Assembly (NCBI GenBank): GCA_037447655.1
Contig: JBBHKE010000890.1
Coordinates: 372,001 to 436,000 of the forward strand
DNA length: 64,000 bases
Direction: 5' to 3'
DNA from: Zygnema cylindricum
Taxonomy: Eukaryota > Streptophyta > Zygnematophyceae > Zygnematales > Zygnemataceae
Positions 8,791 through 62,892 of the stretch are shown here, in pieces. Each line of letters begins with the position of its first letter. The stretch's first letter is position 1. The position numbers were made by a program, and so were the translations under genes. The notes under the pieces were generated by a model, which ran no database searches, was not told the DNA's origin, and saw only the letters and a list, made by a program, of their open reading frames with translations.

Positions 8791-8859
8791 AGTTCAGTTT
8801 TTTATCGCGTATTCCCATACGCTTCTTCTCCACAGAACCAACAGTGTAAGACTGTACGG

Positions 8860-9240: not shown

Positions 9241-9249
9241 ATGAGCGAC

Positions 9250-12404: not shown

Positions 12405-13183
12405 TGAAATTTTGTGGTCTCCATTGACCCACAGAATGAGCAGCCTATGTAAAGCCTCTAGTATAATATTTGCCCCTTCTACTTTCCCGCTGAATAAGAG
12501 ACACCCAGGCACACAAAAATTTTGACCACTCTCACCCCTATGAGGACAAGACTCCTTTGAGTCAAACGCAAAAAGAATCACTGAATATGCTCCCCTAAGC
12601 AGTAAGTTATGGCTGGTCAAAGATGACCTTTATAGTTACAAGCTCTCTTAGAGAGAGAGGTACATAAATATTACTAAGTCTCGGTCTGCCTACTCACGAC
12701 TAGCTACTACTAAACCCGAGTCCAATAAGAACACTATATTGTACAAAAAGGTACAATGGGCAATGTACTTATTGTACGACCATTGTACGACAAGGTCTAC
12801 AAGGTGACACCTGTCAAATCGGAAGCCATGGTTCCTCCTCCCATCTTCTCCGGTATCAAATAATGTGGCGCCACGTGGCATTGCGTGACGCTATCTCCGG
12901 ATGCTGCCAAAAGCTCACTTCGCGTGGCGGCTATAATGCCAGCCGTCCAATCAAAACATATTTTACACGGTTCAGATTTGCGTACATGCAGGTATTGCTC
13001 CTTTTGGTTTATTCTGTTGTTAATTAGATGTTGCGTTAATGTTTATATATTTATGAAACCTGTCACGTGAATTGTTTCGTAACGCCTTAATGGTGAAGGC
13101 GTTAGGCTATGGAGACTCTAGAGGTCGCATGTTCAAATCTAGACTTAGGCATCATTTTAGTAAAATACCATTTACTTCAAAAA
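12405..13183 (-). mobile_element. 5' LTR of copia element D
   Basis: It begins TGAAATTTTGTGGTCTCCATT and aligns with the other LTRs throughout (AAAAAGAATCACTGA; GTACGACCATTGTACGAC; GCCACGTGGCA). The far end, CCATTTACTTCAAA, has lost the usual CAACA. A tRNA-like block is present at 13083-13147, but the hairpin segment found in other LTRs is deleted. No target duplication can be tested because the left end of the element is gone. Confidence 0.75.
13083..13147 (+). promoter_or_regulatory. tRNA-like block in LTR of D
   Basis: An A-box-like GCCTTAATGGTGAAGGCG is followed about 40 bp later by a B-box-like TGTTCAAATCT. It lies on the strand opposite to the element's mRNA, at the same place as the blocks in the other LTRs. 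Confidence 0.5.
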
Positions 13184-15360: not shown

Positions 15361-16556
15361 TAGTGTTGTGTATCGTAAAAAAATTATCGCGATAACAACG
15401 ATACCGTATAGTTATTAATCAAATGGTTAGAGGTCTTGATATATCGGTCGAGACCAACAAATTCCAATTTGGTATAACTTAAAATATGAGAGCATACGCT
15501 AGTATTTTATAACATATTGTATTATATTATTGACTCTATATAGCGTGGCATGCCACGCATAAGATCTGTTCCGTCCATGTTTAACTGTGATTTATTACGG
15601 AGAGTGCAACACATAAACGTTGACAAATTTAAAAGAATACTTTATAGTTCTAAAACTATAGTACCGAAACCATAGTGGTTCGTACTATTATTTTTTTTTT
15701 CCCGAATTCTACGAATTGTCAGTGACTTTTGAAAAAATCGAAAAAACACGTGGAGTACTTTCTGTCCGGTAAACTTAACGGAAAATTTACGGGAAAAAAT
15801 ATACAATTTTTTACGGGATGTGTACGGAATTTGACGAAAAGATACGTTGCACTTTGTAGTACTTTTTGGCCGGTTAATTGAACAAATTTTCAACAACGTA
15901 CAGAATGGAACTGAAAAACTGGTGAACATGGAACGGAAAAATGATGGCGGACACAAAGTACAACGGATGCAAAAAAACTGTTTGCGTGCCGCCGGAATTG
16001 AACAGACGACTTGGAATGAGAAAATACGAGCGGACAGGCAACGTGAGCGTCGGCATCATAGGATGGCTTTTTGGCGGCTTATGCCAAAAAATCCGACAGA
16101 TTGACACGTGGCAGGTCTTCACTGGATATCAAGGATGAAAGGGACAAAGCCATGGCGTAGGATGTGAAAGGTACATCGTTTTTATTAGATCCGTACCAAA
16201 ACCGCACAGACCTCATGGCGGCTACTGTACTTTATGTACTTTATATGATTGTGCAACTGTACAATATCAGTGATCTGATTTGTAGACACCCCAGTAGATA
16301 GGGGTTGTGAGTAGGGCGCTTCCGTGAAATAACACAAACAGTTGAGTGTAATGGCCGTACATTTATCTGTACGGTCTATATAGATATTGCGAACAATTAT
16401 CGATATCGGTGTTATCGCCAATAATAACCGATAAATATCGGTTATTTATCGCCGATAACACTGATACTGATATATCGTAGCAATATATGGATTATCGACT
16501 TTTTGAAAAAATGCCCATATCGGTTATCGGCAAATCCTTACCGATACACAATACTA
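15361..16556. mobile_element. hAT element, TAGTGTTGTGTATCGG family
   Basis: Left end TAGTGTTGTGTATCG, right end CGATACACAATACTA. The 8-bp flanks are ATAATTAG (15353-15360) and ATAAGTAG (16557-16564), one mismatch, and copy 1 of the duplication has the empty site ATAATTAG near 5240. The interior shares ATAGCGTGGCATGCCACGC with 54340-54375. From about 15670 to 15900 it contains TACGG-rich sequence related to the CATAGTTGTTC family, possibly a nested insertion. No transposase ORF. Confidence 0.8.
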
Positions 16557-16962
16557 ATAAGTAGAATACGGAAATGCCATTTTAACTTCTGTAAAATAGT
16601 TAAATTGTCAATGGCATGAGCTATCAAGCCATGAAACAGAATTGGATTGGACCATAGAAAACACCTCAATGATTGCTATACAGCCAATGCAACAGTGGAG
16701 TACACCGCCCATCGCTATTACAAATTCGTTACTGCAGTGAATTATTCACGTTCGCACTTTATTTAGAATTTAACTTCAGTAAAGTGCACTATGTTCAGCA
16801 ATGTGGCTCATTATGGACCACTTAGGATAACTACAACATTGTTATCAACACTAATTTTTGATTTTGGGTCGAAAAAATAGAGTGATTAACGATAACACCA
16901 GCTTTCTATCTATTTCACTCTTCTCTCCTCAAATTTGCTCTCACTTTCCCTTCTCCCAAGCT

Positions 16963-20236: not shown

Positions 20237-20647
20237 CTACGGGATATCGAGGATCGCTCTTGACCCTGTATCGCGTATTAGATTGTTTTCCTCAATTTTG
20301 GATTTTTTTGTAAACAAGAGTTGACATGATTTATTTTGGAAAATGACAAGGAAGATTTCAACAGGGTCGTAGAATAGCCCAGCAAGTTCCAATGGTCTTT
20401 GGAAGATTCGCTTTTTCATAGAGAGATCTTCCGCCATAGGTCTTGATGTGTAACTCTGTTGCCCCCTGAGATGATCTTGCATGGCAATATATCCCTTTAA
20501 GGTCCATTTAACTTCGCTAATTGCAGCACTGTGATTACACGGGTGAACCAAAAGATGGGTGAAAATGTCGTTCCCATGCACAAGCACAAAAAATATCAGC
20601 ATCAAAGCACAAAATAGACCAGCTTGAGAGACGAATTTTCTTTCCAT
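20237..20647 (-). CDS. Unknown protein, N-terminal signal-anchor exon
   Basis: The ORF of 136 codons starts MERKFVSQAG and has a strong hydrophobic segment (LFCALMLIFFVLV) at residues 11-23, followed by a luminal-type region with NHSAA and PMAEDLSM. It looks like a signal peptide or type II anchor of a secreted or Golgi protein. The last third may run into an intron; no clear donor was chosen. A truncated copy lies at 8860-9240, where conserved stretches support coding status. The family is not recognised. Confidence 0.45.
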   Translation of the reverse strand: MERKFVSQAGLFCALMLIFFVLVHGNDIFTHLLVHPCNHSAAISEVKWTLKGYIAMQDHLRGQQSYTSRPMAEDLSMKKRIFQRPLELAGLFYDPVEIFLVIFQNKSCQLLFTKKSKIEENNLIRDTGSRAILDIP

Positions 20648-21281
20648 GTAAATAATGAATCAGCAGAACAATGCTCTTCCATGTTGTGAATTTTCACTTT
20701 AGGCAGAAATGCAAATCAGGTTTAAGTCTCGTTTCGACTGCACACTGAGTAACAACGCAGATTCTATTCATCTTATAGAAAGGTTATGTTTCCATATCCT
20801 CAAATATATCACATAAGTTCGCTTCGTAAATCTCTTTCGCAGATGACCGCGTTCTTTCCAAATTCACCTCTTAAAAGTGTCTCTAATAGTAAACCGCATT
20901 ACCAGCATCTCCATTTATTCCACATCCATCTGAAATCTGCACTCAAATCCACATCGAAAAGTACCTCTGCAACGCAACAGAAACTGCCACGACGTCACCA
21001 TTCCCTTTCAACAAGCGGCTGGTTTTGATGCTCGGAGCGTAACTCCGCGGCATCTAAGTTAGGTGCAGACACTCTGACCCGTGTCACACATGTCACATAC
21101 ATCGACCATTCTTGCATGGGACACATTTTAACTATTTCCCCAATCTCATAAGTCTCGGAAAGTACTAGTGAAACCACAATATATTGAGGCTCAACCTCTT
21201 CCCTAATCTCGCCTTTTTTCTAATGAATTTGTCTTTCCCTTTTACCCTTATGTTTGTGGTTACGAACTGCTACTTGGCAGC
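20648..21281. other. Unassigned region between duplication and element A
   Basis: It contains short ORFs on both strands (20786-21028 +, 20995-21177 -) without recognisable motifs. It may hold the promoter and 5' UTR of the minus-strand gene at 20647. Confidence 0.3.
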
Positions 21282-21631
21282 ATACTTTTCTGTACGGAAG
21301 TGCAATATGATTGGCTCCGTACATCAGTAGATAGAGTCTGTGAGAGAGATACGACTTAGAAAAATTAGTAGATAGGACCCTCTCTCCCAGAGAGCTTCTA
21401 TACTAAATGTCAAATTTGACCCTCCATAACTTACAGCTCAACGGAGCAAATTCAGAGATTCTTTTTGCTATCGACTCAGGGGAGTCTTACCTTCAAAAGG
21501 GTGAAGGTAGTCAGAGTTTTTGTCTGCCAAGGTAGCACTTGTTCTTGGTAAAACACAAAGGGGTGAAGGTTATCCTAGAGGCTTCTTGGAAGATGTCCAT
21601 TTTGAGGACTTATGGAGGTCTCAGAGTTTGA
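21282..21631 (+). mobile_element. 5' LTR of copia element A, truncated
   Basis: Only the 3' third of an LTR is present, from CTTTTCTGTACGGAAG. It aligns with 52095-52382 (GTACATCAGTAGATAGAGTC, TAACTTAC, CTCAGGGGAGTCTT). The upstream part, including the tRNA-like and hairpin modules, is missing. Confidence 0.8.
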
Positions 21632-24600
21632 AGTTATGGGCCTATCCTCTAGGGTACCAATATTTAATGGAATTGGCTTCATATACTGGAAAGTATGATG
21701 ATAGGAGCTCTATAGGAAAAAAAGTTTTGAAGGATAGTGAGTGGACGAGTGGGGCGTCCATCAAGTCTTGGAATTCCTCCAGGGTTTGGAGGTAGCAGAT
21801 TCACAAAGAAAGCAGATCCACCTTCAACGATGGGGACAAAGGAAGGAGAGGTGGTGGACAAAGGAGCAGAGAAGGAGACCACCACACCAATAGCAACTGG
21901 TTCACCATTCATGTCACCTATTCCGAGGAGCGAGGAGAATGATACTGAAACCTGGGACTTCAACAACATGGCGGCAAAACACTTCATCCTTGGCCATCTT
22001 ACTCAAGGACTTGCATGTTCTCATTTGCAGGTAGAAAGGGCATCCGATCTTTGGATGGCTCTCATAGAGATGTACCGAAGTGGTACGATTCAGCAACAAC
22101 AGTAAGCTGATCAGAAAGTTAATGAGTATGTATACAAAGGGGGGACGATGTTGGATTTCTTCAATGAGCTTGCTACACTCTTCATGGAGCTAGAGAGTGC
22201 AGGAAAAGATTTTAGTGAAAAAGAAAAGGTTAACTGTTTACTGATGAAGTTACCGGATGAGTTCGAGAACATAGTCAACCGCGTGTAGGACTTGCCTGAC
22301 TCAAGGTGGATATGGAACTCAGTGGTAGGGACGATTCTCGTTCGGGAGAATACGAGTGAGATCCGAAGGGGAGGAAAGAGTGGGCAAGCCTTGGCAACTG
22401 CGACCGATTGGAGGAACAAGGATTCCCGAAATCAGGTCGGAAACTATGGGGGGAGGGAGCAAAAAAATCAGACCGACGAGTTAGGACCAAGGGCTCCCAA
22501 AGGTTTATGTCATTTTTGTAAGAAATCGAGACACTATATGGTAGAGTGCACTAAGCTAATCAAGCTTTGGTTAAAGGAGGGACAGACCGGTGGAACCCCC
22601 AGAGGAAAAAAAAAGGCCCTTGTGACACAAGTACATGAGGCAAAATCTGAGGACGAGGATGATGAGCTCCTTTTGGATGAGGAGTTGGAGGCGAAAAACG
22701 AGGTCAAAATTCCACGAAGGCAGAAATGTGCTTACGGTAGATTGAAAGGTGAATCGGCCTAGATTATAGATCCAGGTGCCTCCATGCACATGTGTAAGGA
22801 TAGGCACCTGTTCACTAAGATAAAGAAGATTCCCACCGTAGAGATAGAGTACGGGGATGGGAGGATAATCACCACTACTCTTGTAGGATCGGTAGATTTG
22901 AAAGTGTTACTAGAAGGAAAGACATCTATAGTAACATTCTCCGATGTATTGTTTATTTCGGAGTTGAGCAAAAACCTCATCTCTACATTTTTATTAGATG
23001 ATAAGAATTTTTTTACTAGCACTAGGGAAGGAGTCTTTACTGCTAGTTTTGAGGAGGATGTCTATTTCATTGCTGAGAAAGGTAGCCATGGGATGTTTAG
23101 GCTGATTTTAAGTAATGAAACAAAGAAACTTTATTATGCTGGTGTTCATGATATCATGATGTGGCATAAGAGGCTTAGGCATGTGAATCTAGATAAGTTA
23201 AGAGAGATGAAAAAGATGGGAGTGGTGGAAAGGATTCAGTTCAGTGAGAGTGATAATATAAGTGATTGTAGTGGATGTGTTCAAGGTAAAGCACACAGAT
23301 TACCCTTTCCTAAAACAACCACCTATAAGGGAGAAAAAAATATAGATCTAGTACACACAGATATTTGGGGACCGGCTAAAGTGCCCTCACCCGGGGGGGA
23401 AGAGATTTATAATGACTATCACTGATGATTGGTCTCGGTATTCCAGGGTGTATTTTTTGAAAAACAAGTTAGAAGCTCAGGATTGTTTTAGACAATATAA
23501 AGCATGGAGGGAAAAACTCCATGAAACTCCAATCAAGAGAGTAAGGAGTGACAATGGTGGTGAGTATACTTCTAACCAGTTTGAGGATTTTCTGGGGGAA
23601 GATGGAGTCCAACACCGAAAGACAGTTCCAGAAAACCCGGAACAGAATGGGGTAGCTAAAAGGTTAAATAGAACACTAAGTGATAACGCTAAAAGTATGT
23701 TGTCAGATAAAAAGATAGGAAAAAGGTTTTGGGTAGAAACAATGAACTATGCTAATTACCTCAAAAATAGAGTTCTTACTTCAGTTATAAAATATCAAAC
23801 ACCTTATAAGAGATGGAGAGGCCGGAAACCAGACATATCTCACTTAAAGGTTTTTAGCAGTCAAGTATTCAGCCTAGATACTGATCGGTCTAATTGGAAG
23901 CTAAATCCTAAAAGAAAACCGGGATACTTATTAGGATATGATGAGGATGTTAAAGGATATAGAGTTTATGATCTAAAGAGGGAAGATATAATCTTAGTGA
24001 AGCATGTAGTAGTTATGGATGAAGGAAAGTTTGTAGATCCCTTCAAGAATACAAAGTCAATAAAAATCAGATTTGAGGCAGAAAATTCCGTTGACTTTGA
24101 GCTTCCTAACTATCCAGGTTTTAGAGAAGATAACATTCTTGGAGGTACAAATCAGACCAAAAAGGACTCGGCTGCGGAAACTCTAGTGACAACTCTACGC
24201 GAAGCGGAAGACGTGGTGGAAATTTATTCGGAATCAAGAGATAGGGTAGAAGTCGAGTTTGTTCGAAAGAATCCACGAGAACCATCTATTCTGACCACAG
24301 ATATTGAGGGGGGAAGAAGAAGTAGCAAAAGATTGCAAGAAAAACAAGTTAATAACAAGGTAACAAAACTATCTCATCAATATGAACCTTAGACTTATGG
24401 AGAGGCGATGACTTGTCTAGGAAGGAACCGGTGGAAGACAACCATCAATGAGGTGATGGCCTCAATTATGGCAGCCATTACTTGGGAGCTGGTGGATTGT
24501 CAACCTAACCGAAAACCAATCGGTTGTAAGTGGGTTTTCAAATTAAAACTGAACCCTCATAACACAATTGAGCGCTACAAGGCCCGATTAGTGGCAAAGG

Positions 24601-25044: not shown

Positions 25045-25757
25045 TGTAATTCTGTGACCTCCATTGGTACACAGCATGTCCAGCTTATGTGAAGCCTCTA
25101 GGATAGTATATACACTTTTGACTTGGAAAATAAATAATTCCCACCCTGGGACGCAAAAACTTTGACTGACTACTTTGTTGTGTAGCCTAGACTCCCATGA
25201 GTCCGCTGCAAAAAGAATCACTGAAATTGCTCCCTTGACCATTAAGTTATGGCTGACCAAAGTTGGTCCATAAATAGAGGTGCACTCTGGGAGAGAGGCT
25301 GAAAAACCAAAAAATATTCTAAGTCCTAAGCTACCTCTCTAAACCTATATATAAGGTACTAGACCAATCATATGACTGTAAAGTACAAGAAGGTATAGGT
25401 ACCGCTGTACTTATTGTACGACCATAGTACGACATGGCAGGTCTGCTGACGCGTGTCAGTTCTGGAGCCGTAGTTGCTCCTCTTGTTATATCTGTTGTCC
25501 AACCATATGTTGCCATGTGTCATCCGCCGACATCTAGTCCGCAAATCGCAAAACTTCTATTTTGGCATTCCGACTCCACTGTGAGTTGTCCAATCAGATC
25601 CGACATTTGATTTCGTCCGTTGAAATTACATGTCGATTCGGGTATTTCGTGCGGTCCGATTTCGTGCAAACCGGTATGTCGAGTAATTTGTTTAAAAAAA
25701 CGGAATATTCGACGTGGTACATCTTTAAATAAATATCGCGTTATATACGTGTATCGC

Positions 25758-25833
25758 TCTTCTAAGACCTATTGGATAAGGCGTATGGCTAGTCCGTACC
25801 GCGGTCATCCAGAGGTCCTTAGATCAACTCCCA
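25758..25833 (+). promoter_or_regulatory. tRNA-like block in LTR of B
   Basis: AGACCTATTGGATAAGGCG resembles a tRNA D-arm (A box), and AGATCAACTCC a B box. It lies on the strand opposite to the element's mRNA. The right LTR has the same block at about 37466-37552 with B-box-like GGATCAATTCC. Confidence 0.45.
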
Positions 25834-25914
25834 CAATTGGCAGAGTATGTTTTGCAAAGACAATATTAGTGGTCTGCCTGTCTCTTTAGCTGGTAGAGGC
25901 AGCCATGGCTGCCT

Positions 25915-28204: not shown

Positions 28205-28209
28205 GTTAG
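28205..28209. repeat. Target site duplication of element C, left
   Basis: GTTAG is repeated exactly at 34618-34622 on the other side of element C. Confidence 0.9.
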
Positions 28210-28964
28210 TGCAATTCTGTGTCCTCCATTGGACTACAGAATACAGGAAGCCTCTAGATAGTGGTTAACTAACCCACTTTAAGCCACGACCACTTCTGCC
28301 CAAGAAGGCAAACTGACAATTTGACTGCACCCCTGTATAGCCTGGACTCCCCTGATTCCGTAGCAAAAAGAATCACTGAAAACGGCCAACCAGCCGATAA
28401 GTTATAGGGTGGCAAAGATGCCAATTTATACAAACTCTCAAAGAGAGGACTATCTACCTAAATTTTCCTAAGTCCTAGTTTTTCCTACTTCCCTCTCACA
28501 GCTCCTATCTACTGCCTGTACGAACCAATCCCAAAACTGTATAGTACAAGAAAGTACTACTGCCGATGTACTTTCTGTACGGCCTCTGTACGACACGGCC
28601 ATTAAATGGACGCGTGTCCACTTTCCACTCGTCCGTACGTTCCTCGGAATTCCCGCGACCGAATGATGTCTTCCCACGTGGCGCCAGGTCATGCCACGTC
28701 ACTAAATGCCAAAATGACCATTCCGGGATTTTGGCGATGATGTGCGCTGTTAGATTTGACGTGAAATTTAATCTCGGCCGTAATAAATACTTGCGCGATA
28801 TTTGTTTCGCTTTCGAAACAAAATGCGCGATATCCATTTCAAACAAGTACAGTACTTCGTATTTCGCAGAACTGTATCTATGTGTGGCGTTAAGGGTTTC
28901 AGTTAAATGAATCTAGTACATTACAATAGTTTAAATAGTAATGAAACCCTATATCTCCTAACGG

Positions 28965-29040
28965 ACTTCTACGACAGACTGGTTAGAGCTAACGGCTACG
29001 CCGCGCTCTGCCGGTCGGGGGTTCGAGTCCTGCCGGACTC
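28965..29040 (+). promoter_or_regulatory. tRNA-like Pol III promoter block in LTR of C
   Basis: TACGACAGACTGGTTAGAGC reads like a tRNA D-arm (A box) and GGTTCGAGTCC (29020-29030) is a perfect B box. CGGGG / TCCTG can form the T stem. The anticodon arm is malformed (long loop, 4-bp stem CGGC/GCCG), so it is not a working tRNA gene. It is antisense to the retrotransposon mRNA. The identical block in the other LTR is at 34331-34407. Confidence 0.6.
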
Positions 29041-29110
29041 AACCTTTTGTTGAGAGTGGCTTAAGCCACTCTTTAGTCCTTCCTATAGAGTTGAGGTAGC
29101 CATGGCTCCA

Positions 29111-29172
29111 TTGCTCTCTCTCTCTCTCTCCTTCAGTGACTACAACAAGTATGGGGGCGAGAGAGAGAGAAG
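29111..29172 (+). other. Conserved LTR hairpin (element C, left)
   Basis: A CT-repeat arm pairs with a GA-repeat arm, then CCTTCA pairs with TGGGGG around the loop GTGACTACAACAAGTA. TTTT follows at 29195-29198. The right LTR has the same structure near 34480-34535. Confidence 0.6.
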
Positions 29173-29252
29173 AAATAGAGGCAGGCTGCCTACATTTTCT
29201 TTTCTAATAAATTTAGACCTAGAAAATATAATAAAAACCATTTATTTCAACA

Positions 29253-29266
29253 CTCCCCTTATTTTC
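29253..29266 (-). other. Polypurine tract of element C
   Basis: GAAAATAAGGGGAG on the minus strand lies directly before the 3' LTR and would prime plus-strand DNA synthesis. It overlaps the TAG stop codon of the polyprotein ORF by one base. Confidence 0.9.
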
Positions 29267-32200
29267 TAGTCAAATTTTAATTTTTCTTTTAACCCGCATT
29301 TCTCCCGACAATATTTTAATTTAGGAGAGGGCACAGGTTTTGTCATCATGTCAGCCACCATTTCTTCATCAGGTCTATACACGAGATTTAAAATTTTATT
29401 TTCAACTTTTTCTCTTACGAAGCTTAATCTTATGTCCATATGTTTTGCTTTGAAGTGATGTTTTGGATTGGCTGCGATTGCGATTGCAGCTTGATTATCG
29501 CAAAAGATTTCATGCACTCCCTCCTTCATATATCCCAGTTCTTGCAACAATGACTTCACCCACATTAGTTCTTTCACAGCAGAACAAGACGCCATATACT
29601 CAGCCTCCATAGTATACTGAGCAACCACCTTTTGTTGCTTACTGCTCCAACAGCAAGCACCTTCTCCAACATACAACACATACCCAGAAGTGCATCGTCT
29701 CATAGGTGCGTCTCCATAACTGGCATCACTCCAAGTAGTGATGTCAGTGTGCTCCCCTCCCAAATGCAACCATAACTCTCTAGTTCCCACTAGATATCTC
29801 ATGACTCTCTTGGCTGCCTCCCAATCCCTCTCCCTAGGATCATTAAGACTCCTACTGAGTACACCAACTGCCGCCGCTATGTCCGGCCTGGTACAATTCA
29901 TAAAATAGATTAAGCTTCCTACGACTTGTCTATAAGGGATAGACTTCATGAACTCTCTCTCCTCTGGACTCATCTGATCGTCTAAGATCATCACTCCTCC
30001 TTCTACACTCCCATCACTTACTTTTTTCAAGTCCATGGGAGTGGTACAACTGTTAGCATTTTCCATCTGGAATTTCTCAAGCATATTACCTATTGCTTCT
30101 TTTTGAGTAAGTCTGATAATTTTCTTCCCCCTATCTCTCTCCATTTGGATCCCCAAAATATATTTTGCCTCCCCTAAATCCTTCATATCAAATCGGCCCC
30201 TAAGATCTTTCTTTAGTCTATTGATATTCTCCAAAGACTTACTTAACACAAGCAGATCATCCACATAAATTGCAATAAAAATGACACCATTCTCATCTTC
30301 AAACATATAGATAGAATGGTCAGAGCTGATCCGGATGTATCCCACATCAGTGAGAAACTCATCTAGTTTCTTATTCCACTGTCGGGGAGCCTGTTTCAGT
30401 CCATATAAGGATTTTATGAGCCTGCACACTTTGCTCTCTTCTCCTTCTTCCACAAACCCCTCGGGTTGCCTCATAAAAATTTCTTCCTCTAACTCACCAT
30501 TAAGAAAAGCAGTCTTAATGTCCATCTGGTGAATTTCCATGTCTTCCGCTGCAGCCAGACTGAGGAGAATCCTTACCGATGGGAACCGAACAACTGGAGC
30601 AAAGGTCTCCTCATAGTCAATCCCCTCTTTTTGGGTGAACCCCTTCGCTACCAATCGAGCCTTATACCTCTCAATTGTATTATCTGGGTTCAGTTTTAGT
30701 TTAAATACCCATTTACATCCAATAGGTTTTCTGTCTGGAGGGCAATCCGCTAGTTCCCAAGTATTTGCTTCCATGATAGAAGCCATCTCATCATTTATGG
30801 CTCTAATCCATCTTTCTTTCTCTGGACTATTCACTGCCTCTAAGTAAGACTGAGGCTCATCTGGGTGAGATAGCTTAGTTACCTTATGGGCAGCTTGTTT
30901 TTCCTGTATCCTTTTGCTGCTCCTCCTTCCTCCCTCAAACTCCGAAGCTGGAATGGATGGAAGTCTTGGATTTCTTCTCACTGTCTCATCGGCTCCCCTG
31001 TCCATAAAAACCGTATCTTGTCCCGCTTCTTCCATCTCCTCGAAGTCCATAGGAGTATGTGAGGTTTTCGGTGAGTCTCCTGTATCTTCGATCTCCCCTG
31101 AATCTGTAATCACAGTTTCACTTATGTCTTTTTCGGGAACGACTGAGTTCTCCTCACTTTCGGACTCAAATTTGATCCTTATCTTCTCTGTATATTTGAA
31201 GGGGTCAAATGACTTCCTTTCATCCATGACAACTAAGTGTTTGACCAAAATGATATCTTTCTTTGCTAAGTCATAGACTCTATATCCCTTAACATCCTCA
31301 TCATATCCCACAAAGTATCCAGGTTTTCCCTTAGCATCTAGTTTCCAGTTTTTCCTATCCGTGTCAAGACTGTAAACTTGGCTACCAAATACTTTAAGGT
31401 GTGAGATATCTGGTTTCCTTCCAACCCATCTCTCATAAGGTGTAACTCCCTTTACAGCTGAGGTAAGGACTCTATTTTTAATATAGTTGGCACAGTTCAT
31501 TGCCTCTACCCAAAATCTCTTTCCTATTTTCTTGTCTGCCAACATACTGCATGCACTATCTCCTAGTGTTCTATTCAACCTCTCAGCTACCCCATTTTGT
31601 TCCGGGTTATATGGTACAGTTTTCTGGTGTTGCACTCCCTCATCTCTAAGATATTCCTCAAATTGGTTAGAGGTATATTCTCCCCCATTATCACTCCTTA
31701 TCCTCTTAATAGGGGTTTCATGCAATTTCTCACTCCATGCTTTATACACTTTGAAGTAAGTTGATGCTTCAGACTTATTTTTCAGAAAGTAGACTCTAGA
31801 GTATCTAGACCAATCATCAGTTATTGTCATCATAAACCTCTTTCCTCCAACCGAAGGTACTTTTGCAGGTCCCCAAATGTCTGTGTGGACCAAATCTAAC
31901 ACTTTCTCACCTCTATATGTGGCGGCTTTGGGAAAGGGAAGTCTGTGAGCCTTACCTTGAGCACAACCACTACAATCATCCATCACTTCATTATCCCCAA
32001 ACTGAATGCCATCTACTACCCCAAGCTTTTTCATTTCCCTTAACCTATCAAAATGCACATGCCCCAATCGCTTATGCCAAATCATCACCTTAGGAACACC
32101 AACATAGTAAGCATTCTTCTTTTCATTACTCAAGTTAAGCCTAAACATTCCTTGGCTACCCTTATCTGCCGTAAAGTAAACTTCATCTCGATACTTAGCT

Positions 32201-33615
32201 GTAAAGACTCCCTTTCTAGTGAAAGTATCAAACTCTTTGTCATCTAACACAGACGTAGAGACAAGATTTTTACTCAGCTGGGGAATGTAAAGTACATCTG
32301 AGAATGTAAGTATCGAAGTCTTTCCCTCCACTAAGACTTTCAGATCTACTGATCCCACTAGATCTGTAGTAACCACTCTCCCATCCCCATACTCTATCTC
32401 TACAGTAGGAATCTTTCTTAACTTAGTGAAGAGTTCTTTATCACGACACATATGCATGGATGCACCTGAGTCGATGATCCATCCTTCCTGTGGAGCTTCC
32501 CGAATTGCTCCAAGGGCACACTTTTGTCTCCGAGGGATCTCCTTCTCCTCCAGACTCTCGTCAAGAAGAAGCTCCCCATCCTCCTCAGAAGACTCATCCT
32601 CGCTTTCTCCTGACACTTTTGTAACCACAAGTGCCTTTTTCTTCCCTTCGGAAGGACCTCCTCCACGGTTCTCTTGGAGCCTTAGCTCTGATAGTTTGAC
32701 ACAATCTGCAATAAAGTGTCCCGGCTTTTTGCAATAGTGACAAAGACCCTTTGGGGGCCTCTGTCCCCCAGACAGATCTCTTTCCCCTCTATAAGGTTTC
32801 TTCGGGTCCTTCCCCCATTGATCCCCTCCTGCTGCTAGAGCTTGAATGCTCTTTCCTCCTCTCCTAATCTCCATTGTGTTTTCCTGCACAAGTATCATCC
32901 TAACTACTGTGTTCCATTTCCATGAACTATCAGGCATTCCCTGTACTCTGTACACTATGTTTTCAAACTCATCTGGTAATTTCATGATAAGGGTGTTAAC
33001 TTTCATTTTCATTGTACCTGTCCATCCGGCACTTTCCATTTCCATATACAAACAAGAAAGATCATTACAGTAATCTAACATCTTTCCTCCTTTGTAAGTG
33101 TAACTCAATAATTTTTGCTCAGCCAACTGGAGCTCCTGAATAGTTCCAGCTCTATAAATCTCCACTAAACTCTCCCACAACTCCTCCGCTTTGTAAATGT
33201 GAAGATGAGGAGTGGCCAAACCTTGAGTGAGGTGCCTCAGAATGAAGTTCTTGGCAGCCATGTTTACATCCTCCCACATTTGAGTATCGTTCTCCACGGT
33301 CTTCACGGTCGCCGCTCCCGATACTGTGGCAATAGGAGTGAGGGGTGTCTCCTTCCCTTTGTCCTTTTCGGACACACTGCTGTCCCCATCATCTGCCTCC
33401 TCCGCTGAGGCAGCCGTTGTTGCAGAGAACCTTACTCCCCCAAATCCTGGTGGAGTTCCCGAAGGCGGACGTTTCACTTGTCCACTCACGATACCCCAGT
33501 ATCGTTTTTCACACAAAGCTCCCATCATCATGGCTTCCCAATAGATAAACCCAGATCCATTGAAGGTGGGTACCCTAGAGGGTGGGCCCATAACCTGGAA
33601 TTCTGTGTCCTCCAT
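29266..33615 (-). CDS. Ty1/copia Gag-Pol polyprotein, intact (element C)
   Basis: A single uninterrupted ORF of 1449 codons. Domains in order: gag (about 1-280) with zinc knuckle CHYCKKPGHFIADC near 292; aspartic protease with IIDSGASMHMC near 380; GAG-pre-integrase with WHKRLGHVH and CSGCAQGK; integrase DD35E (HTDIWGP, RSDNGGEY, NPEQNGVAER); reverse transcriptase ([41 protein letters not shown] near 1118); RNase H (TTWSDASYGD, TMEAEYMA, CDNQAA, KHMDIR). All expected catalytic residues are present. The first ATG is 20 bases inside the 5' LTR, so residues 1-6 are LTR-encoded; a second ATG at residue 9 lies inside the primer binding site. The stop overlaps the polypurine tract. The element could be autonomous and active. 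Confidence 0.97.
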   Translation of the reverse strand: MEDTEFQVMGPPSRVPTFNGSGFIYWEAMMMGALCEKRYWGIVSGQVKRPPSGTPPGFGGVRFSATTAASAEEADDGDSSVSEKDKGKETPLTPIATVSGAATVKTVENDTQMWEDVNMAAKNFILRHLTQGLATPHLHIYKAEELWESLVEIYRAGTIQELQLAEQKLLSYTYKGGKMLDYCNDLSCLYMEMESAGWTGTMKMKVNTLIMKLPDEFENIVYRVQGMPDSSWKWNTVVRMILVQENTMEIRRGGKSIQALAAGGDQWGKDPKKPYRGERDLSGGQRPPKGLCHYCKKPGHFIADCVKLSELRLQENRGGGPSEGKKKALVVTKVSGESEDESSEEDGELLLDESLEEKEIPRRQKCALGAIREAPQEGWIIDSGASMHMCRDKELFTKLRKIPTVEIEYGDGRVVTTDLVGSVDLKVLVEGKTSILTFSDVLYIPQLSKNLVSTSVLDDKEFDTFTRKGVFTAKYRDEVYFTADKGSQGMFRLNLSNEKKNAYYVGVPKVMIWHKRLGHVHFDRLREMKKLGVVDGIQFGDNEVMDDCSGCAQGKAHRLPFPKAATYRGEKVLDLVHTDIWGPAKVPSVGGKRFMMTITDDWSRYSRVYFLKNKSEASTYFKVYKAWSEKLHETPIKRIRSDNGGEYTSNQFEEYLRDEGVQHQKTVPYNPEQNGVAERLNRTLGDSACSMLADKKIGKRFWVEAMNCANYIKNRVLTSAVKGVTPYERWVGRKPDISHLKVFGSQVYSLDTDRKNWKLDAKGKPGYFVGYDEDVKGYRVYDLAKKDIILVKHLVVMDERKSFDPFKYTEKIRIKFESESEENSVVPEKDISETVITDSGEIEDTGDSPKTSHTPMDFEEMEEAGQDTVFMDRGADETVRRNPRLPSIPASEFEGGRRSSKRIQEKQAAHKVTKLSHPDEPQSYLEAVNSPEKERWIRAINDEMASIMEANTWELADCPPDRKPIGCKWVFKLKLNPDNTIERYKARLVAKGFTQKEGIDYEETFAPVVRFPSVRILLSLAAAEDMEIHQMDIKTAFLNGELEEEIFMRQPEGFVEEGEESKVCRLIKSLYGLKQAPRQWNKKLDEFLTDVGYIRISSDHSIYMFEDENGVIFIAIYVDDLLVLSKSLENINRLKKDLRGRFDMKDLGEAKYILGIQMERDRGKKIIRLTQKEAIGNMLEKFQMENANSCTTPMDLKKVSDGSVEGGVMILDDQMSPEEREFMKSIPYRQVVGSLIYFMNCTRPDIAAAVGVLSRSLNDPRERDWEAAKRVMRYLVGTRELWLHLGGEHTDITTWSDASYGDAPMRRCTSGYVLYVGEGACCWSSKQQKVVAQYTMEAEYMASCSAVKELMWVKSLLQELGYMKEGVHEIFCDNQAAIAIAANPKHHFKAKHMDIRLSFVREKVENKILNLVYRPDEEMVADMMTKPVPSPKLKYCREKCGLKEKLKFD
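33583..33595 (-). other. Primer binding site of element C
   Basis: GGTTATGGGCCCA directly follows the 5' LTR. It is complementary to the anticodon arm (TGGGCCCATAACC) of eukaryotic initiator tRNA-Met, not to its 3' end. Drosophila copia is known to use a 5' half of that tRNA as primer. In this element the same bases are codons for V-M-G-P of gag. Confidence 0.85.
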
Positions 33616-34617
33616 TGGACTACAGAATACAGGAAGCCTCTAGATAGTGGTTAACTAACCCACTTTAAGCCACGACCACTTCTGCCCAAGAAGGCAAACT
33701 GACAATTTGACTGCACCCCTGTACAGCCTGGACTCCCCTGAGTCCGTAGCAAAAAGAATCACTGAAAACGGCCAACCAGCCGATAAGTTATAGGGTGGCA
33801 AAGATGCCAATTTATACAAACTCTCAAAGAGAGGACTATCTACCTAAATTTTCCTAAGTCCTAGTTTTTCCTACTTCCCTCTCACAACGAACCAATCACA
33901 AAACTGTATAGTACAAGAAAGTACTACTGCCGATGTACTTTCTGTACGGCCTCTGTACGACACGGCCATTAAATGGACGCGTGTCCACTTTCCACTCGTC
34001 CGTACGTTCCTCGGAATTCCCGCGACCGAATGATGTCTTCCCACGTGGCGCCAGGTCATGCCACGTCACTAAATGCCAAAATGACCATTCCGGGATTTCG
34101 GCGATGATGTGCGCCGTTAGATTTGACGTGAAATTTAATCTCGGCCGTAATAAATACTTGCGCGATATTTGTTTCGCTTTCGAAACAAAATGCGCGATAT
34201 CCATTTCAAACAAGTACAGTACTTCGTATTTCGCAGAACTGTATCTATGTGTGGCGTTAAGGGTTTCAGTTAAATGAATCTAGTACATTACAATAGTTTA
34301 AATAGTAATGAAACCCTATATCTCCTAACGGACTTCTACGACAGACTGGTTAGAGCTAACGGCTACGCCGCGCTCTGCCGGTCGGGGGTTCGAGTCCTGC
34401 CGGACTCAACCTTTTGTTGAGAGTGGCTTAAGCCACTCTTTAGTCCTTCCTATGGAGTTGAGGTAGCCATGGCTCCATTGCTCTCTCTCTCTCTCTTTCA
34501 GTGACTACAACAAGTATGGGGGCGAGAGAGAGAGAAGAAATAGAGGCAGGTTGTCTACATTTTCTTTTCTAATAAATTTAGACCTAGAAAATATAATAAA
34601 AACCATTTATTTCAACA
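33596..34617 (-). mobile_element. 5' LTR of copia element C
   Basis: It begins TGGAATTCTGTGTCC and ends TTTCAACA, followed by the target duplication GTTAG. Near identity with the 3' LTR indicates a recent insertion. It carries the same tRNA-like block (B box 34387-34397), hairpin and TTTT. Confidence 0.95.
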
Positions 34618-34622
34618 GTTAG

Positions 34623-36760: not shown

Positions 36761-37703
36761 TGTAATTCTGTGACCTCCATTGGTACACAACATGTCCAGC
36801 TTGTGTGAAGCCTCTAGGATAGTATATGCACTTTTGACTTGGAAAAAGAATAAGTCCCACCCTGGGACGAAAAAACTTTGACGGATTACACCCGTGTGCA
36901 ACGTGGACTCCCTTGAGTCTGTTGCAAAAAAAACCACTGAAATTGCTCCCCTGAGCATTAAGTTATGGCTGACCAAAGCTGGTCCATAAATACAGGTGCA
37001 CTCTGGGAGAGAGGCTGAAAAACCAAAAAATATTTTAAGTCCTAAGCTACCTCTTTAAACCTATTACTAGGGTACTAGACCAATCATATGACTGTAAAGT
37101 AGAAGAAGGTATACGTACCGCTCTACTTCTTGTACTGCCATAGTACGGCATGGCCGGTCCACTTATGCGAGTCAGTTCCGGAGCCGTAGTTGCTCCCCCG
37201 TAATATCTGCTCTCCAACCATATGTTGCCACGTGTCATCCGCCGACATCTTGTCCGCAAACCGCCATACTTCTAATCCGGCATTACGGCTCCACTGTGAG
37301 CCGTTCGATCAAATCCGGACATCTGATTTCGTCCGTCGAAATAACATGTCGATTCGGATATTTCGTGCGGTCCGATTTCGTGCGAAATGGTATGTCGCTT
37401 AATTTGTTTAAAAAAAAGGAATATCGGACGCGGTACATATTTGAATAAATATCACGTCATATACGTGTATCGTTCTTCTAAGACCTATTCGATAAGGAGC
37501 ATGGCTAGTTCGTACGGCGATCTTCCAGAGCTCCTTGGATCAATTCCCAAAACTGGTAGAATATGTTTTGCAAGACAATATTAGTAATCTGCCTGTCTCT
37601 TTAGTGCTAGAGGCAGCCAAGGGCTTCGCCTGCAGGTCCTGGTGACTACCATTGCATAGGACCGAGTAAGGTCACAAGAGACTACAAAGACCCTTTTTCA
37701 ACA
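36761..37703 (-). mobile_element. 5' LTR of copia element B
   Basis: Starts TGTAATTCTGTGACC and ends TTTTTCAACA, followed by AAGGG. The tRNA-like block is at about 37466-37552. The hairpin keeps its stem (GGTCCT / AGGACC near 37640-37665), but its loop has drifted. Confidence 0.9.
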
Positions 37704-39013: not shown

Positions 39014-40337
39014 CATAGTTGTTCAAATCGCACAATTTTTTCCTTTTTTACGATTGAAACGTACAGTTCGTGACTTTTGAAAAAATCGTTAAAAAACGTC
39101 TACTGTAAACTGAAACTGAAGTATTTACAGAAACTTGTAAGCAAATTATCAGAATCGAAATTGTTTTACCTGATATGTACGAATAAAGCGGAAATATGCG
39201 TCAGAAGTTATTGGTATACTTTCCTGTCTGAACTCAACATAAATGCCACAGTTGCACGTTTTAGAATCGAAAAAATGCACGGACATTTTCGAAAGAAGAC
39301 GCGAACGTCACAATTATTTCGCGCGTTCAATTTGAAATTTGTACAGGCGTCTTCTTCAATTTTTTTTTAAAGAAGACGCCATGGAACATTGAAAACAAAA
39401 CCGCGAGGAAGCCGCTTCCCCATATCCTACCCTCCTCCCTCCCAAGCTTTTGACTATCCTCGCCTCCAGACTATGACAAAAGCAATCATGCTCAAAAATC
39501 GAGGAGAGGAGTGGGAGCACATGAAGGTTGCAGACGGTGGGATTCTCCTGACCAACCATTTATGCATTTGTATTTATTACAATTTCGAATATAATGCAAT
39601 TATGTGTCCTCCATTGGACTACAGAATACAGGAAGCTTCTAGATAGTATTTAACAAACCCACTTTAAGCCACGACCACTGCTGCCCAAGAAGGCAAACTG
39701 ACAATTTGACTACACCCTTCTGTAGCCTGGACTGCCTTGAGTCCGTAGAAAAAAGAATCACTGAAAACGGCCAACCAGGCGATACGTTATGAGGCACTAA
39801 AAATGCCAATTTGTACAAACTCTCAAAGGGAGAGTTGACTACCTACCAAAATTTCTAAGCCCTGATTCCTTCTATTAATTTCTATCTACTGAAGTACGGA
39901 CCAATCAAATTACTATACCGTACCAAAAAGTACTACTGCCGGTGTACCTTTTGTAGGGCCTATGTACGACAAGGCTATTAAGTGGACGCGTGTCTGTTTT
40001 TTACTTGTCCGTACATTCCTCAGAATTCCTATGACCGAATGTCATCTCTCCACGTAGGTCCAGGTCATGCCACATCGCAAAACGCCAAGGTGACCACTCC
40101 GGGATTTTGGCGATGACGTGCGCCGTCGGATTCGTAATGAGACCTAATCGTAACCGTTTTAATTACATGCGAGATATTTGTTTCGCTGTCAAACAAATGC
40201 GAGGTATTCATTCTGTAAATAATGTCGTACTAAAATTGTATCTATGCACGCTGTATCTAGTTTTAGTTAAATGGATTTCCTACTACCTAAATGTATATAT
40301 ATCTATCACACTCTATAGCATGTAGCAATGTTCCTGG

Positions 40338-40410
40338 TTTAGTAGGATAAAGCTGACCGCTATCGGCCAGCTTCACGAACAGAAGGTACCGTGTTCAAAT
40401 CCCAGGTCCG
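40338..40410 (+). promoter_or_regulatory. tRNA-like block in solo LTR
   Basis: TTTAGTAGGATAAAGC (D-arm-like) is followed by GTGTTCAAATCCCAGG (B-box-like). It is antisense to the element, as in the other LTRs. Confidence 0.45.
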
Positions 40411-40482
40411 TCAAGACTATTTTTAATAACCTACTAAAAAATAACTGCCTGTTTGAACTAAAGGCAGCCATGGATCAACCAC

Positions 40483-42476: not shown

Positions 42477-43039
42477 AGATAGACGAAAAATATGTAATTT
42501 TTTTTTTATTAATGTGATTGATCTTTTTTAAATATCTTGTTTTTCTATGTCGTGCAAATTGTTGAATGTGAAAAATCAAGAATGTCATTAGTTCTTGGTT
42601 TGTATTTTATTTTTTTGGAGTAATGCGCTGTCTGCGAGATAGAGAAAGAAGGCACACAGAAGGCGGCCATGTCTGTCTGTCAGATAGGCTCGGACAGATG
42701 AAATTTCACAAAATTTTACCTTTGTGACATTTGAACCTGGGTACGTCACGTCCGCAGCATAACCTAAGGTGGACGACTAGACTACCGGTTGGTGAAAAAG
42801 TTTCGATACCGGCATAGTGTGTGATAAAAATATAAAGGGTTTATTGTTTTACCGCTCATTTAACTGAAAAGACTTGAAAACTGCGTTATATGTAATAGTT
42901 TTTTGTTTTTTTATGTACGGAATAGTACGAAAGGCAATTCATTAACGATTTTTACGATTTGATCAAAAGGTTTAATGCGTTTGTTACGTATAATTCGTCG
43001 CGTACGGTACGTTCGCACTAATCGCCGTGAACAACTATG
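42477..43039. other. 3' untranslated and subterminal part of the hAT element
   Basis: Non-coding, with TACGG/GTACG words towards the right end (42917-43018), as at the left end. These may be transposase binding sites. Confidence 0.5.
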
Positions 43040-45850: not shown

Positions 45851-45922
45851 AGTTAGAGCCATGGCCGCCTATGCTATCCCGACGGGGACAGATATTAGGT
45901 TGGTAGATTTTACCAAAATGAG

Positions 45923-46012
45923 CTTGCCGCGCCCAGGATTTGAACCTGGTACTTGCCGTCCGTTAAGGTATCTAGTAGCCGGTAGCCTTAGCCAACTAGT
46001 CTAAACCAGAGA
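45923..46012 (-). promoter_or_regulatory. tRNA-like block in solo LTR
   Basis: On the minus strand TAGACTAGTTGGCTAAGGC (A-box/D-arm-like) is followed by CCAGGTTCAAATCCTGG, a T-arm with a perfect 5-bp stem and 7-base loop containing the B box GGTTCAAATCC. Confidence 0.6.
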
Positions 46013-46744
46013 TATATGATGTAGGGTTTGGTAGTTATTTAAATGTTAACACGTAGGCTATTTCATTCAACGGGATATTTAGACATAGATACAGTTTGTA
46101 ATGTACGGCGTACGGAACATCCGAAACGGATACCGCGCATTTTGTTTCGAAGGCGAAACAAATAGTGCGCAAGTATTTATGACGGCCACGATTGTAATCC
46201 GGCTTAATTGGACGGCCACGAAGCATGCCCAGATCGAGGAATGGGTTTTCGGCGGTTTGCGGTCGACGTCACATCAATCGCCACGTGGCACAATCACATT
46301 GGATTACGGCATCTCCGAGGATTCCAAGAACGAATCTAAAAATGACATGTGTCGACTTGTTGGCCATGTCATAAAATGGCCGTAGCACAAGTACCTTTAT
46401 GTACGATACACTATTATGATTGGTGTCGTAATTTGGTAGATAGATTTTTAGATAGAGATAGGACTTGGAAAAATTTGATAGATTGGACCCTCTCTTCAGA
46501 GAGCTTCTATACAAAATGTCAACTTTGACCCTTCATAACTTACTACTCAGGGGAGCAATTTAGAGATTCTTTTTGCTATAGACTCAAGGGAGTCTTGCCT
46601 TTCCAGGGGAAAAGGTGGTCAGAGTTTTTGTTTGTCAAGGTGGCATTTATTCTTGTTGAAACACAAAGGGGTCAGGGTTATCCTAGAGGCTTCGTGTGAG
46701 TTGCCTACTCTGAGGACCTATGGAGGTCTCACAGTTATAAACGA

Positions 46745-51522: not shown

Positions 51523-51603
51523 CTAGGGCCATGGCTACCTAGGCTATCCAGAGGTTTACGAGAAATTTATTAGTTAAAGGGTTTATTTTATCTAAAAGGT
51601 ATG

Positions 51604-51686
51604 TGCCGGCCACAGGATTTGATCCCTGTACCTACCGGCCGGCAGACAGCAGATAGCCGGTAGCCTTAGCCGTTAAGTCTAGGACT
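51604..51686 (-). promoter_or_regulatory. tRNA-like block in LTR
   Basis: Minus strand: TAGACTTAACGGCTAAGGC (A-box-like), then ACAGGGATCAAATCCTGT (T-arm-like with B box GGATCAAATCC). Confidence 0.5.
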
Positions 51687-52382
51687 AGTGTTACGTAGTA
51701 TATAGTTTGATATTTATTTAAACATGTATACGTAGGATTACTCATTTAACTGTAATTTATTACGGGATACATAGATCCGGTAATGTGTAAAGTACGGATT
51801 ACGGTACGGAAAAAAAATCAATACCGCGCATTTATTTCTTAAGTGAAACGAATGCCGCGCATGTATTTATTACGGCTACGACTAAATCCGGATTTAATCG
51901 GACGCCCGGAATTAGCGCCGAGATCGGGGAAGAAGATTTCGGCTGTTTGTGGCCATCGCCACATCGGATGACGCGTGGCAAAATTACATTGGATTGTGGA
52001 ATCTCCGGAGATTATGTCACCGATTCCGGATATGACATGTGTCGACATTTAGGCCATGTCGTACAATGTCCGTACATAAAGTACACCGGCAATTGTACTT
52101 TTGCGTACGTAACTGTATTCTGATTGGTTTCGTACATCAGTAGATAGAGTCTGTGAGAGAGATAGGACTTAGAAAAATTAGAAGATAGGACCCTCTCTCC
52201 CAGAGAGCTTGTGTACAAAAGGTCAACTTTGACCCTCCATAACTTACTGCTCAGGGGAGCAAATTCAGAGATTCTTTTTGCTATCGACTCAGGGGAGTCT
52301 TGCCTTCACAGGGGTGCAGGTGGTCAGAGTTTTTGTCTGCCAGGGTGGCAGTTATTTTTGCTTAAACACAAAGGGGTCAGGA

Positions 52383-53904: not shown

Positions 53905-55613
53905 TAGTGTTGTGTATCGGTAAGGATTTGCCGATAACCGATATGGACCTTTTTTCGGGTACCCGATAATGGATATACTGGTACAATATATTGCCATCGG
54001 CGTTATCGCCGATAAAATTCCAATATTTATCGGTTGTTATCGGCGATAACACCGATATCGATAACTATCAGCGATAACTGTACGGCCCGTACAGATAAAT
54101 CTGTACATATAAATATGGTTGCTATAAATGGCGGCAGCGGGCAGTCTGAAAAACGTGTTCAGTCTGCCCTGTTCGTCTGTTTATTTATTTTTCAAAAAAG
54201 TTTGATTCTCGAGTTTTACAATGTACTTTTTTTTTCGTTTCGGCAGTATAGTTTTAGAACTATAAAGCATTATTTTAAATTTGTCTTCGTTTATGTGCTG
54301 CGTTGGCCGAAATAATTTTCAGTTGAATAGATACGGAATTGATTGTTATACGTGGCATGCCACGCTATATAATGTAAATAATATAATACAGTATATTATA
54401 AAATACTATAGTAGGCGTGCTATATATTTTTGAAGTTATCGCCGATATGGAATTTGTTGGTCTCGTACCGATATATGGGCACCTTTGACTGTTCGATAAC
54501 CGATAACTATCGGTATAGGTGTTATTGCGATAAGTTTTTTACCGATACATGTAGAAATTAATGGTCCATTTATAGTATTTTCTAGGTCTAATATAGAAAG
54601 AAGCCGAGGCAGTCTACCTCTAACTTCTTTCTCCAACTCTCAAACTTGTCGCAGTCACTGAGAAATTAGAGAGGGAGCTAGAGCCATGGCTACCTAGGCT
54701 ATCCAGAGGTTTACGAGAAATTTATATTAGTTAAAGGGTTTATTTTATCTAAAATATATGTGCCGGCCACAGGATTTGATCCCTGTACCTACCGGCCGGC
54801 AGACAGCAGATAGCCGGTAGCCTTAGCCGTTAAGTCTAAGACTAGTATTACGTAGTATATAGTTTGATATTTATTTAAACATGTATACGTAGGATTAATC
54901 ATTTAACTGTAATTTATTACGGGATACATAGATCCGGTAATGTGTAAAGTACGGATTACGGTACGGACAGGAAATCAATACCGCGCATTTATTCCTTAAG
55001 TGAAACGAATGCCGCGCATGTATTTATTACGGCTACGATTAAATCCGGATTTAATCGAACGACCGAAATTAGCGCCGAGATCGCGGAAGAAGATTTTGGC
55101 GGTTTGTGGCCATCGCCACATCGGATGACACGTGGCGAAATTACAATGGATCGTGGAATCTCCGGAGATTATGGCACCGAATCCGGATATGACATGTGTC
55201 GACATTTAGGCCATGTCGTACAATGTTCGTACATAAAGTACACCGGCAGCTGTACTTTTCCGTACGGAACTGTATTTTGATTGGTTCCGTACATCAGTAG
55301 ATAGAGTCTGTGAGAGAGATAGGACTTAGAAAAATTAGAAGATAGGACCCTCTCTCCCAGAGAGCTTCTGTACAAAAGGTCAACTTTGACCCTCCATAAC
55401 TTACTGCTCAGGGGAGCAAATTCAGAGATTCTTTTTGCTATAGACTCATGGGAGTCTTGCCTTCACAGGGGTGCAAGTGGTCAGAGTTTTTGTCTGCCAA
55501 GGAGGCAGTTGTTTTTGCTGAAACACAAAGGGGTCAGATTATCCTAGAGGCTTCTTGGAAGTTGTCCACTCTGAGGACTTATGGAGGTCTCACAGTTTCA
55601 ATACACAACATTA
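53905..55613. mobile_element. hAT element, TAGTGTTGTGTATCGG family, split by a solo LTR
   Basis: Left end TAGTGTTGTGTATCGGTAAGG at 53905. The right end is divided: TTTACCGATACA before the LTR at 54549, then CACAACATTA to 55613. 8-bp flanks are TTGACAAG (53897-53904) and CTGACAAG (55614-55621), one mismatch. Without the LTR it is about 650 bp, with no ORF. Confidence 0.85.
54550..55600 (+). mobile_element. Solo copia LTR inside a hAT terminal repeat
   Basis: Starts TGTAGAAATTAATGG and ends CACAGTTTCA. The 5-bp flanks ATACA (54545-54549 and 55601-55605) are identical. It has the tRNA-like block (minus strand, about 54763-54845) and the hairpin (54630-54680). No internal sequence follows it. 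Confidence 0.92.
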
Positions 55614-62787: not shown

Positions 62788-62892
62788 GGGTAACAAACGT
62801 CCCATCTCCAAAACCATAAGGTTGAAAAACGATCTAAACTGGTGGTCCAGGACGATCTCTGAAGACTTTGAGACTCTGGAGGTATTCAGGAG

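Follow-up and report, generated by a model that had tools for sequence, protein, structure and literature searches.

LTRs of Ty1/copia elements in Zygnema cylindricum carry a tRNA-gene-like unit that runs antisense to the element. The units are homologous, their signals stand at canonical tRNA-gene spacing, constraint falls on specific sites, the structure of a tRNA is lost, and the carrier is an autonomous element. Comparison of the LTRs suggests that they hold a worn antisense copy of a tRNA gene whose on and stop signals were kept and whose remainder drifted, so that the Pol III machinery may be used for a purpose other than tRNA synthesis.

Carrier elements and the antisense unit

The window, that is, the whole stretch of DNA analysed, comprises 64,000 nt of the forward strand of contig JBBHKE010000890.1 (positions 372,001-436,000; assembly GCA_037447655.1) and contains nested Ty1/copia elements (Table 1). 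Element C is assigned to Ty1/copia by the order of its domains, with integrase before RT, by its TG..CA LTR ends and by its PBS, its PPT, which adjoins 29252, and its 5-bp TSD (GTTAG at 28205-28209 and 34618-34622). The ORF encodes gag, integrase and RT domains recognised by Pfam, and because its 1457-aa frame is intact, we regard C as autonomous. The PBS is presumably complementary to the anticodon arm of the initiator-Met tRNA, which we take to be half-tRNA priming. The older element B encloses C between its two LTRs, which are 87% identical to each other. Nine LTRs in the window align and bear the block: two of C, two of B (B3 and B5), one of D and the solo LTRs S40, S45, S51 and S54. The solo-LTR signature of identical flanking 5-bp repeats is seen in 4 of the 38 query LTRs.

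All nine LTRs can be aligned over their whole length and the block occupies the homologous place in each, in agreement with the sequence-only reading, which had claimed a tRNA-like block at the same relative position in these LTRs. Its claim that the block lies antisense in U3 is borne out as well. The minus-strand ORF, PBS, PPT and TSD fix the orientation of C, and the unit is located in U3 on the strand opposite to the element in 9/9 LTRs. It sits ~200-320 bp from the LTR start (LTR-profile positions 726-855) and points away from the LTR body. The profile built from the nine LTRs also matches partial LTRs at 21277-21637 and 62880-63179, both of which stop short of the block. Two eroded remnants absent from the earlier reading keep parts of the unit (Table 1).

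Table 1. Element C, tRNA-gene-like units and eroded LTR remnants, in window positions
Feature	Positions	Strand	Details
Element C, complete copia	28210-34617	-	LTRs, TSD, PBS, PPT, ORF
C 3' LTR	28210..29252	-	1043 bp; 97% identity to 33596-34617
C 5' LTR	33596..34617	-	1022 bp; 97% identity to 3' copy
PBS of C	33581..33595	-	GGTTATGGGCCCACC
Copia gag-pol frame of C, intact	29266..33639	-	1457 aa stop to stop; Pfam RVT_2, rve, Retrotran_gag_2, others
Unit, C 3' LTR	28930..29048	+	TATA-like to TTTT
Unit, C 5' LTR	34297..34415	+
Unit, B 3' LTR (B3)	25724..25853	+
Unit, B 5' LTR (B5)	37440..37569	+	older copy; G18 and C25 changed
Unit, D LTR	13042..13158	+	D stem 4/4
Unit, solo LTR S40	40294..40424	+	D stem 4/4
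Unit, solo LTR S45	45915..46043	-	T stem 5/5
Unit, solo LTR S51	51594..51722	-
Unit, solo LTR S54	54751..54879	-
Eroded LTR remnant	42657..42870	-	TATA-like, GGTTCAAAT (C61 changed) and T-run kept; LTR profile E 5e-4, block profile E 0.63
Eroded LTR remnant	15973..16313	-	box B GTTCAATTCC and T-run, without box A part; E 4e-9 (16031-16313), block profile E 0.003 (15973-16012)

In a protein search, the closest match among 120 listed of 7835 is the metagenome protein P0017, with 79% identity over RT-RNase H on a contig of 4999 bp; the others reach at most 51%. A separate protein search matched at least 16 proteins. Copia relatives were not confirmed in viral contigs, where one search gave no match and another gave 18 pattern matches, nor in nine further viral pattern matches, in which RT or integrase never fell below E 0.14, nor among 74 matches to two patterns in prokaryote genomes. 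Two overlapping frames that adjoin solo LTR S40 (40607-42348) encode a hAT transposase with DUF659 and hAT dimerisation domains. The window also contains a ~4-kb segment present twice (5240-9255 and 16556-20638), ~11.4 kb apart at 85-95% identity.

Promoter signals, site-specific constraint and tRNA structure

Along its own strand, the unit consists of a TATA-like TTTAAATA, then a weak box A, a T33 whose spacing is exactly that of a tRNA, a box B and finally TTTT. The TATA-like sequence, TTTAAATA or near it, begins 89-99 bp before box B, a run of at least four T follows 14-18 nt past box B, and CTA occupies tRNA positions 32-34, each in 9/9 LTRs; the sequence-only reading had missed all of these. 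The T-run is specific to this place: TTTT within the next 36 nt in all nine LTRs is found at 32 of 1253 alignment columns, which form one single cluster at the unit. In canonical tRNA numbering, G10, G19, A21, T33, G53, T55, C56, A58 and C61 are invariant in 9/9 LTRs. The universal positions T8 and A14 fail, as does G18 in a single old copy. The numbering register was chosen after the alignment had been seen, except for T33 and positions 72-73, whose spacing was then forced. T33 is therefore a free test, since its column is fixed once the D arm has been placed. T33, C72, A73 and TTTT all stand at the spacing of a tRNA gene.

The box B site of the block fits GGTTCRANYCY, the published consensus for type 2 Pol III promoters, at 9-11 of 11 positions and is the best match on either strand of its LTR in 9/9 cases, with one tie (B3), which sustains the earlier claim of a box B in each block. 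Of the 10 occurrences of the motif GWTCRANTCC in the window, where 20 shuffles lead one to expect 2.0, 8 lie inside blocks. Box A, described earlier as an A-box-like stretch, turns out to be weak. Within 35-75 bp of box B, the best match to TRGYNNARBGG reaches 8-10 of 11 positions, a fit equalled by 2-55 sites per LTR on the block strand (own site counted), and the best consensus site is not always at the D-arm position, where the fit is poor (T8 in 4/9 LTRs, Y11 in 2/9, A14 in 2/9). A combined pattern of box A, box B and T4, composed after the LTRs had been seen, finds 6/9 units, missing both C copies and B5, and has no other match in the window, against a mean of 0.0 in 100 shuffles.

The core of the TATA-like sequence, TTTAAA, is near-palindromic and reads as TATA in either direction. 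A sense-strand TATA-like match is found there in 8/9 LTRs, B5 having a changed base, and a second one, TATATA, lies 16 bp away in 3/9. In the C-type LTRs, an inverted repeat GAGTGGCTTAAGCCACTC and then TTT directly follow TTTT (29054-29071 and 34421-34438; also noted at loci L012 and L025). At L012, this inverted repeat reads GAGTGACTTAGGTCACTC, with both arms changed and the pairing kept. Elsewhere in the U3 of C, a CT/GA-rich hairpin (29095-29190 and 34470-34548) matches Rfam families of miRNA precursors below threshold on either strand; these matches are probably simple-repeat chance.

The signals evolve more slowly than their surroundings. In the nine LTRs, 9/12 universal tRNA positions are invariant against 7/50 other ungapped block columns (Fisher p 8e-5), and with one LTR for each of six families the counts are 10/12 against 9/50. 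We also grouped 56 LTRs, taken from the window and from the first 38 genome loci, into 17 clusters. Mean conservation among these is 0.91 at universal positions and 0.68 in other block columns (p 6e-5), and maximum-likelihood site rates are 0.65 for universal positions, 0.69 for TATA and 0.67 for TTTT. The other block columns evolve at 1.13, the remaining U3 at 1.11 and the remaining LTR at 1.03. TATA (p 0.002) and TTTT (p 0.018) are slower than U3; because the 17 clusters are related, these p values overstate independence and serve as guides. The non-universal block columns do not differ in rate from the remaining U3 (p = 0.88, 17 clusters). Mean pairwise identity over six families is 0.521 in the block and 0.562 in the LTR, and R/U5, with an identity of 0.609, is better conserved and contains the best-conserved short windows. 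The site rates thus narrow the claim that the block evolves slowly: it does not as a whole, and its promoter and terminator positions do.

The structure of a tRNA, by contrast with these positions, is gone. The tRNA-finder and covariance-model check came out negative, with 0 tRNAs from ARAGORN at default and no Rfam tRNA match at the gathering threshold or at E 10. The D, anticodon and T stems pair in 60.0% of cells, compared with 58.5% in column shuffles. This pairing is above that of versions slid by 1-3 columns (32-56%), as expected of a decayed tRNA. The acceptor stem reaches at most 5/7, and the D stem is perfect in D and S40 only. As the sequence-only reading had it, the T stem at 45923 is perfect, there and in no other of the nine LTRs. 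The search for a conserved RNA fold predicted 3 pairs, of which none has both partners changed, and gave no common fold with covariation. We reject a functional tRNA gene, since ARAGORN and Rfam find no tRNA and the stems are no better than shuffles. At a lowered threshold, ARAGORN calls three blocks tRNA-Arg(acg), but these calls are uninformative because it makes 31 across the window. tRNA-Arg, which the D arm of B3 and the CTACG in C resemble, is a candidate parent. Judged from these alignments, what survives in the unit appears to be the DNA sites read by factors, together with a terminator. The Pol III promoter module proposed earlier thus stands as a tRNA-derived, Pol III-type, antisense unit in U3, common to diverged LTRs and constrained at promoter positions; its weak part is box A.

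Copies across the genome

The whole genome (352.8 Mb) was searched with the C block and with the S54 block, the window's own copies being included in both searches. The C block gave 40 scored hits of 2535 first-look candidates, all at 100%, and the S54 block gave 40 of 4425 at 94-100%. An unselected sample was obtained from other LTRs that happen to fall in 83 genome loci (L010-L092), of which 14 span the block's place; all but one (in L049) lie within ~1.5 kb of a block hit, so they are not a random genome sample. The block profile matched 14/14 of these, TTTT is kept in 13/14 and box B is exact in 9/14. Of the five without an exact box B, four have one changed base and the fifth, L063 (profile E 1e-4), has neither box B nor TTTT. 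The inexact box B copies and the losses in L063 would fit copies decaying after insertion. Every examined LTR that spans the place keeps at least a trace of the block (56/56, and 14/14 unselected), and an empty site, an LTR without the block, was not seen among them. In the 30 kb beside the window, the truncated remnant L093 keeps GATCAAATCC, and no LTR was found in L094 and L095.

Nested LTRs occur at L012, L020, L021, L025, L028, L029, L031, L044, L057, L059, L076 and L092, and none of the 12 insertion points falls outside LTR-profile positions 209-369 and 725-1042. On a looser reading, L016 (~283) and L023 (~256) show further LTR-in-LTR insertions.

Function of the unit and relation to known systems

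The closest published case is the TRIM element Helenus (TRIMp3), from which tRNA-like sequences in LTRs are known; their boxes are conserved and tRNA function is mostly lost (PMC10886601). Helenus is non-autonomous, 311-1263 bp in all, and its tRNA-like promoter is proposed to drive the element; autonomous partners are argued to need Pol II and to be unlikely to have a long LTR stretch in common with TRIMp3 (PMC10886601). Half-tRNA priming is reported there for fungal Copia and Helenus. The likeness to our LTRs lies in a tRNA-derived sequence that is conserved around boxes A and B and is mostly not a functional tRNA. In addition, most fungal families have a PBS corresponding to a tRNA anticodon loop (iMet commonest; Copia-like there) and 5-bp TSDs, as in C (PMC10886601). 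The difference is that C encodes gag-pol and has LTRs of ~1 kb with an antisense unit and its own TTTT, whereas Helenus is short and without coding capacity; we take the Helenus promoter to be in sense orientation. Cassandra, a TRIM derived from 5S rRNA, likewise has the Pol III promoter of a small-RNA gene in both LTRs, but it is non-autonomous and its 5S-type promoter starts the element's own transcript (PMC10886601). In Dictyostelium TRE5-A, the retroelement promoter has an oppositely oriented tRNA gene nearby, and enhancement of the promoter by an upstream tRNA gene is reported; the tRNA gene there is the host's and is reached by targeted insertion (PMC5911963), whereas here the unit belongs to the LTR. 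Yeast ETC sites and tDNAs are similar as TFIIIC sites that affect neighbouring Pol II transcription and differ in being single host loci not borne by mobile elements (PMC4228148). tRNA-derived SINEs (SINE2) resemble the unit in their tRNA head, in which boxes A and B are present and the cloverleaf has decayed; our unit differs in ending with TTTT at the tRNA 3' end without a recognisable body or tail, and its significant copies in the window are in LTRs only. Published studies reportedly also deal with tRNA-gene barriers (PMC11830863) and with an antisense Pol III MIR in Polr3e (PMC5358760).

The sequence-only reading knew of no copia lineage with such a module. This claim of novelty has to be trimmed because tRNA-like Pol III promoters in LTRs are already published (Helenus, PMC10886601). 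Those we found in print sit in short non-autonomous elements, where synthesis of the element RNA is attributed to Pol III. Among the titles and abstracts listed from the open-access (PMC) literature, none describes an antisense tRNA-like unit in an autonomous LTR element. What appears new here is the autonomous carrier, the antisense orientation and the unit's own terminator.

The best explanation, which in our judgement has an even chance of being right, would be an ancestral antisense acquisition of a tRNA or tRNA-derived sequence, followed by selection on Pol III-read sites, with the unit acting as a divergent element that opens or insulates the Pol II promoter. A copia superfamily ancestor would have gained the tRNA gene, or a sequence derived from one, backwards in the U3 of its LTR, and the LTR families observed would descend from it. 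Selection may then have kept the sites that Pol III factors read, namely the TATA-like sequence ~33 bp before tRNA position 1, G10, G18, G19, A21, T33, box B and TTTT, while the tRNA proper decayed. Plant and S. pombe tRNA genes have a TATA at -30/-24 (PMC7279448). TFIIIC and TFIIIB would bind, and Pol III would make a short antisense RNA of ~85-100 nt or at least occupy the site. The simplest layout would be a divergent pair, with the Pol III unit facing one way and the LTR Pol II promoter the other, and the near-palindromic TTTAAA may serve both polymerases. The element would thereby have a built-in neighbour resembling a tRNA gene, and its Pol II promoter next to this unit would stay open or insulated; in yeast, both TFIIIC sites and Pol III complexes change Pol II transcription nearby (PMC4228148). 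Several points stand against this explanation. The TATA-like sequence could belong solely to the sense Pol II promoter, and the unit in the 3' LTR sits in the path of the element mRNA, where a strong Pol III complex could be a hindrance. In addition, box A is poor and not distinctive, and box B is exact only in the fraction of unselected LTRs given above.

A more specific form, which we offer tentatively and consider somewhat unlikely, is that a tRNA gene was domesticated by an autonomous lineage and now serves as a regulatory part, a divergent Pol III unit having a symmetric TATA in common with the Pol II promoter, and that TBP, TFIIIB and TFIIIC hold each new copy open or insulated at whatever site it inserts. 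If true, a mobile element would carry a tRNA-gene-like regulatory part for its own Pol II promoter and would have internalised what Dictyostelium and yeast elements get by inserting beside host tRNA genes. The general question of whether retroelements evade silencing more readily when close to tRNA genes would also become testable. With 4425 and 2535 first-look candidates for two LTR families, of which 40 each were scored, the element may spread many TFIIIC-type sites through one genome.

The product of the unit, and not its occupancy, might be what matters. U3 is present at the 3' end of the mRNA of LTR elements, and an antisense Pol III RNA would therefore be complementary to that mRNA; by pairing there or by feeding small RNAs, it might limit or tune the element. 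The retention of both start and stop signals is in line with this. Between the box positions, however, the sequence drifts at the rate of U3 with no conserved fold, and a self-limiting RNA is without obvious advantage to the element; we consider a functional RNA unlikely. Slightly less probable still is a passive relic, in which an old tRNA or SINE insertion was inherited by the LTRs and has no present function. One ancestral insertion can account for everything, including the decayed stems and box A and a block no slower than U3 as a whole. This reading is strained by the site rates, since universal positions, TATA and TTTT evolve at ~0.6 of the surrounding rate, and box B and TTTT are kept across families whose U3 flanks (34190-34290 and 34409-34460) are only 44% and 35% identical.

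By analogy with the attraction of yeast Ty1 and Ty3 to tRNA genes, the unit might be an integration beacon through which existing LTRs receive fresh insertions of these or other elements. LTR-in-LTR nesting is common, with 15/81 outer-classed junctions inside another superfamily LTR, and of 12 insertion points, with a single one counted for each locus, 7 lie ~360-520 bp upstream of the unit, at LTR-profile positions 209-369. The other 5/12 fall at 725-1042, in or beyond it, the position window was picked post hoc and local LTR density is high. The clustering is suggestive only, and we think a beacon improbable. A chance resemblance to tRNA boxes, with the conserved sites serving as enhancer or TATA elements for Pol II, is very improbable: it accommodates the two-way TTTAAA and the sense-strand matches, and it runs against the tRNA-gene spacing of T33, C72, A73 and TTTT and against the combined pattern, which, post hoc as it is, occurs in units and nowhere else in the window. 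A promoter for the element's own genomic RNA, the role proposed for the LTR promoters of Helenus and reported for Cassandra, box A/B or 5S promoters in TRIMp3 elements (PMC10886601), has next to no chance here and is refuted for these LTRs by orientation and terminator, the unit being antisense in all nine and its TTTT ending any transcript after ~90 nt.
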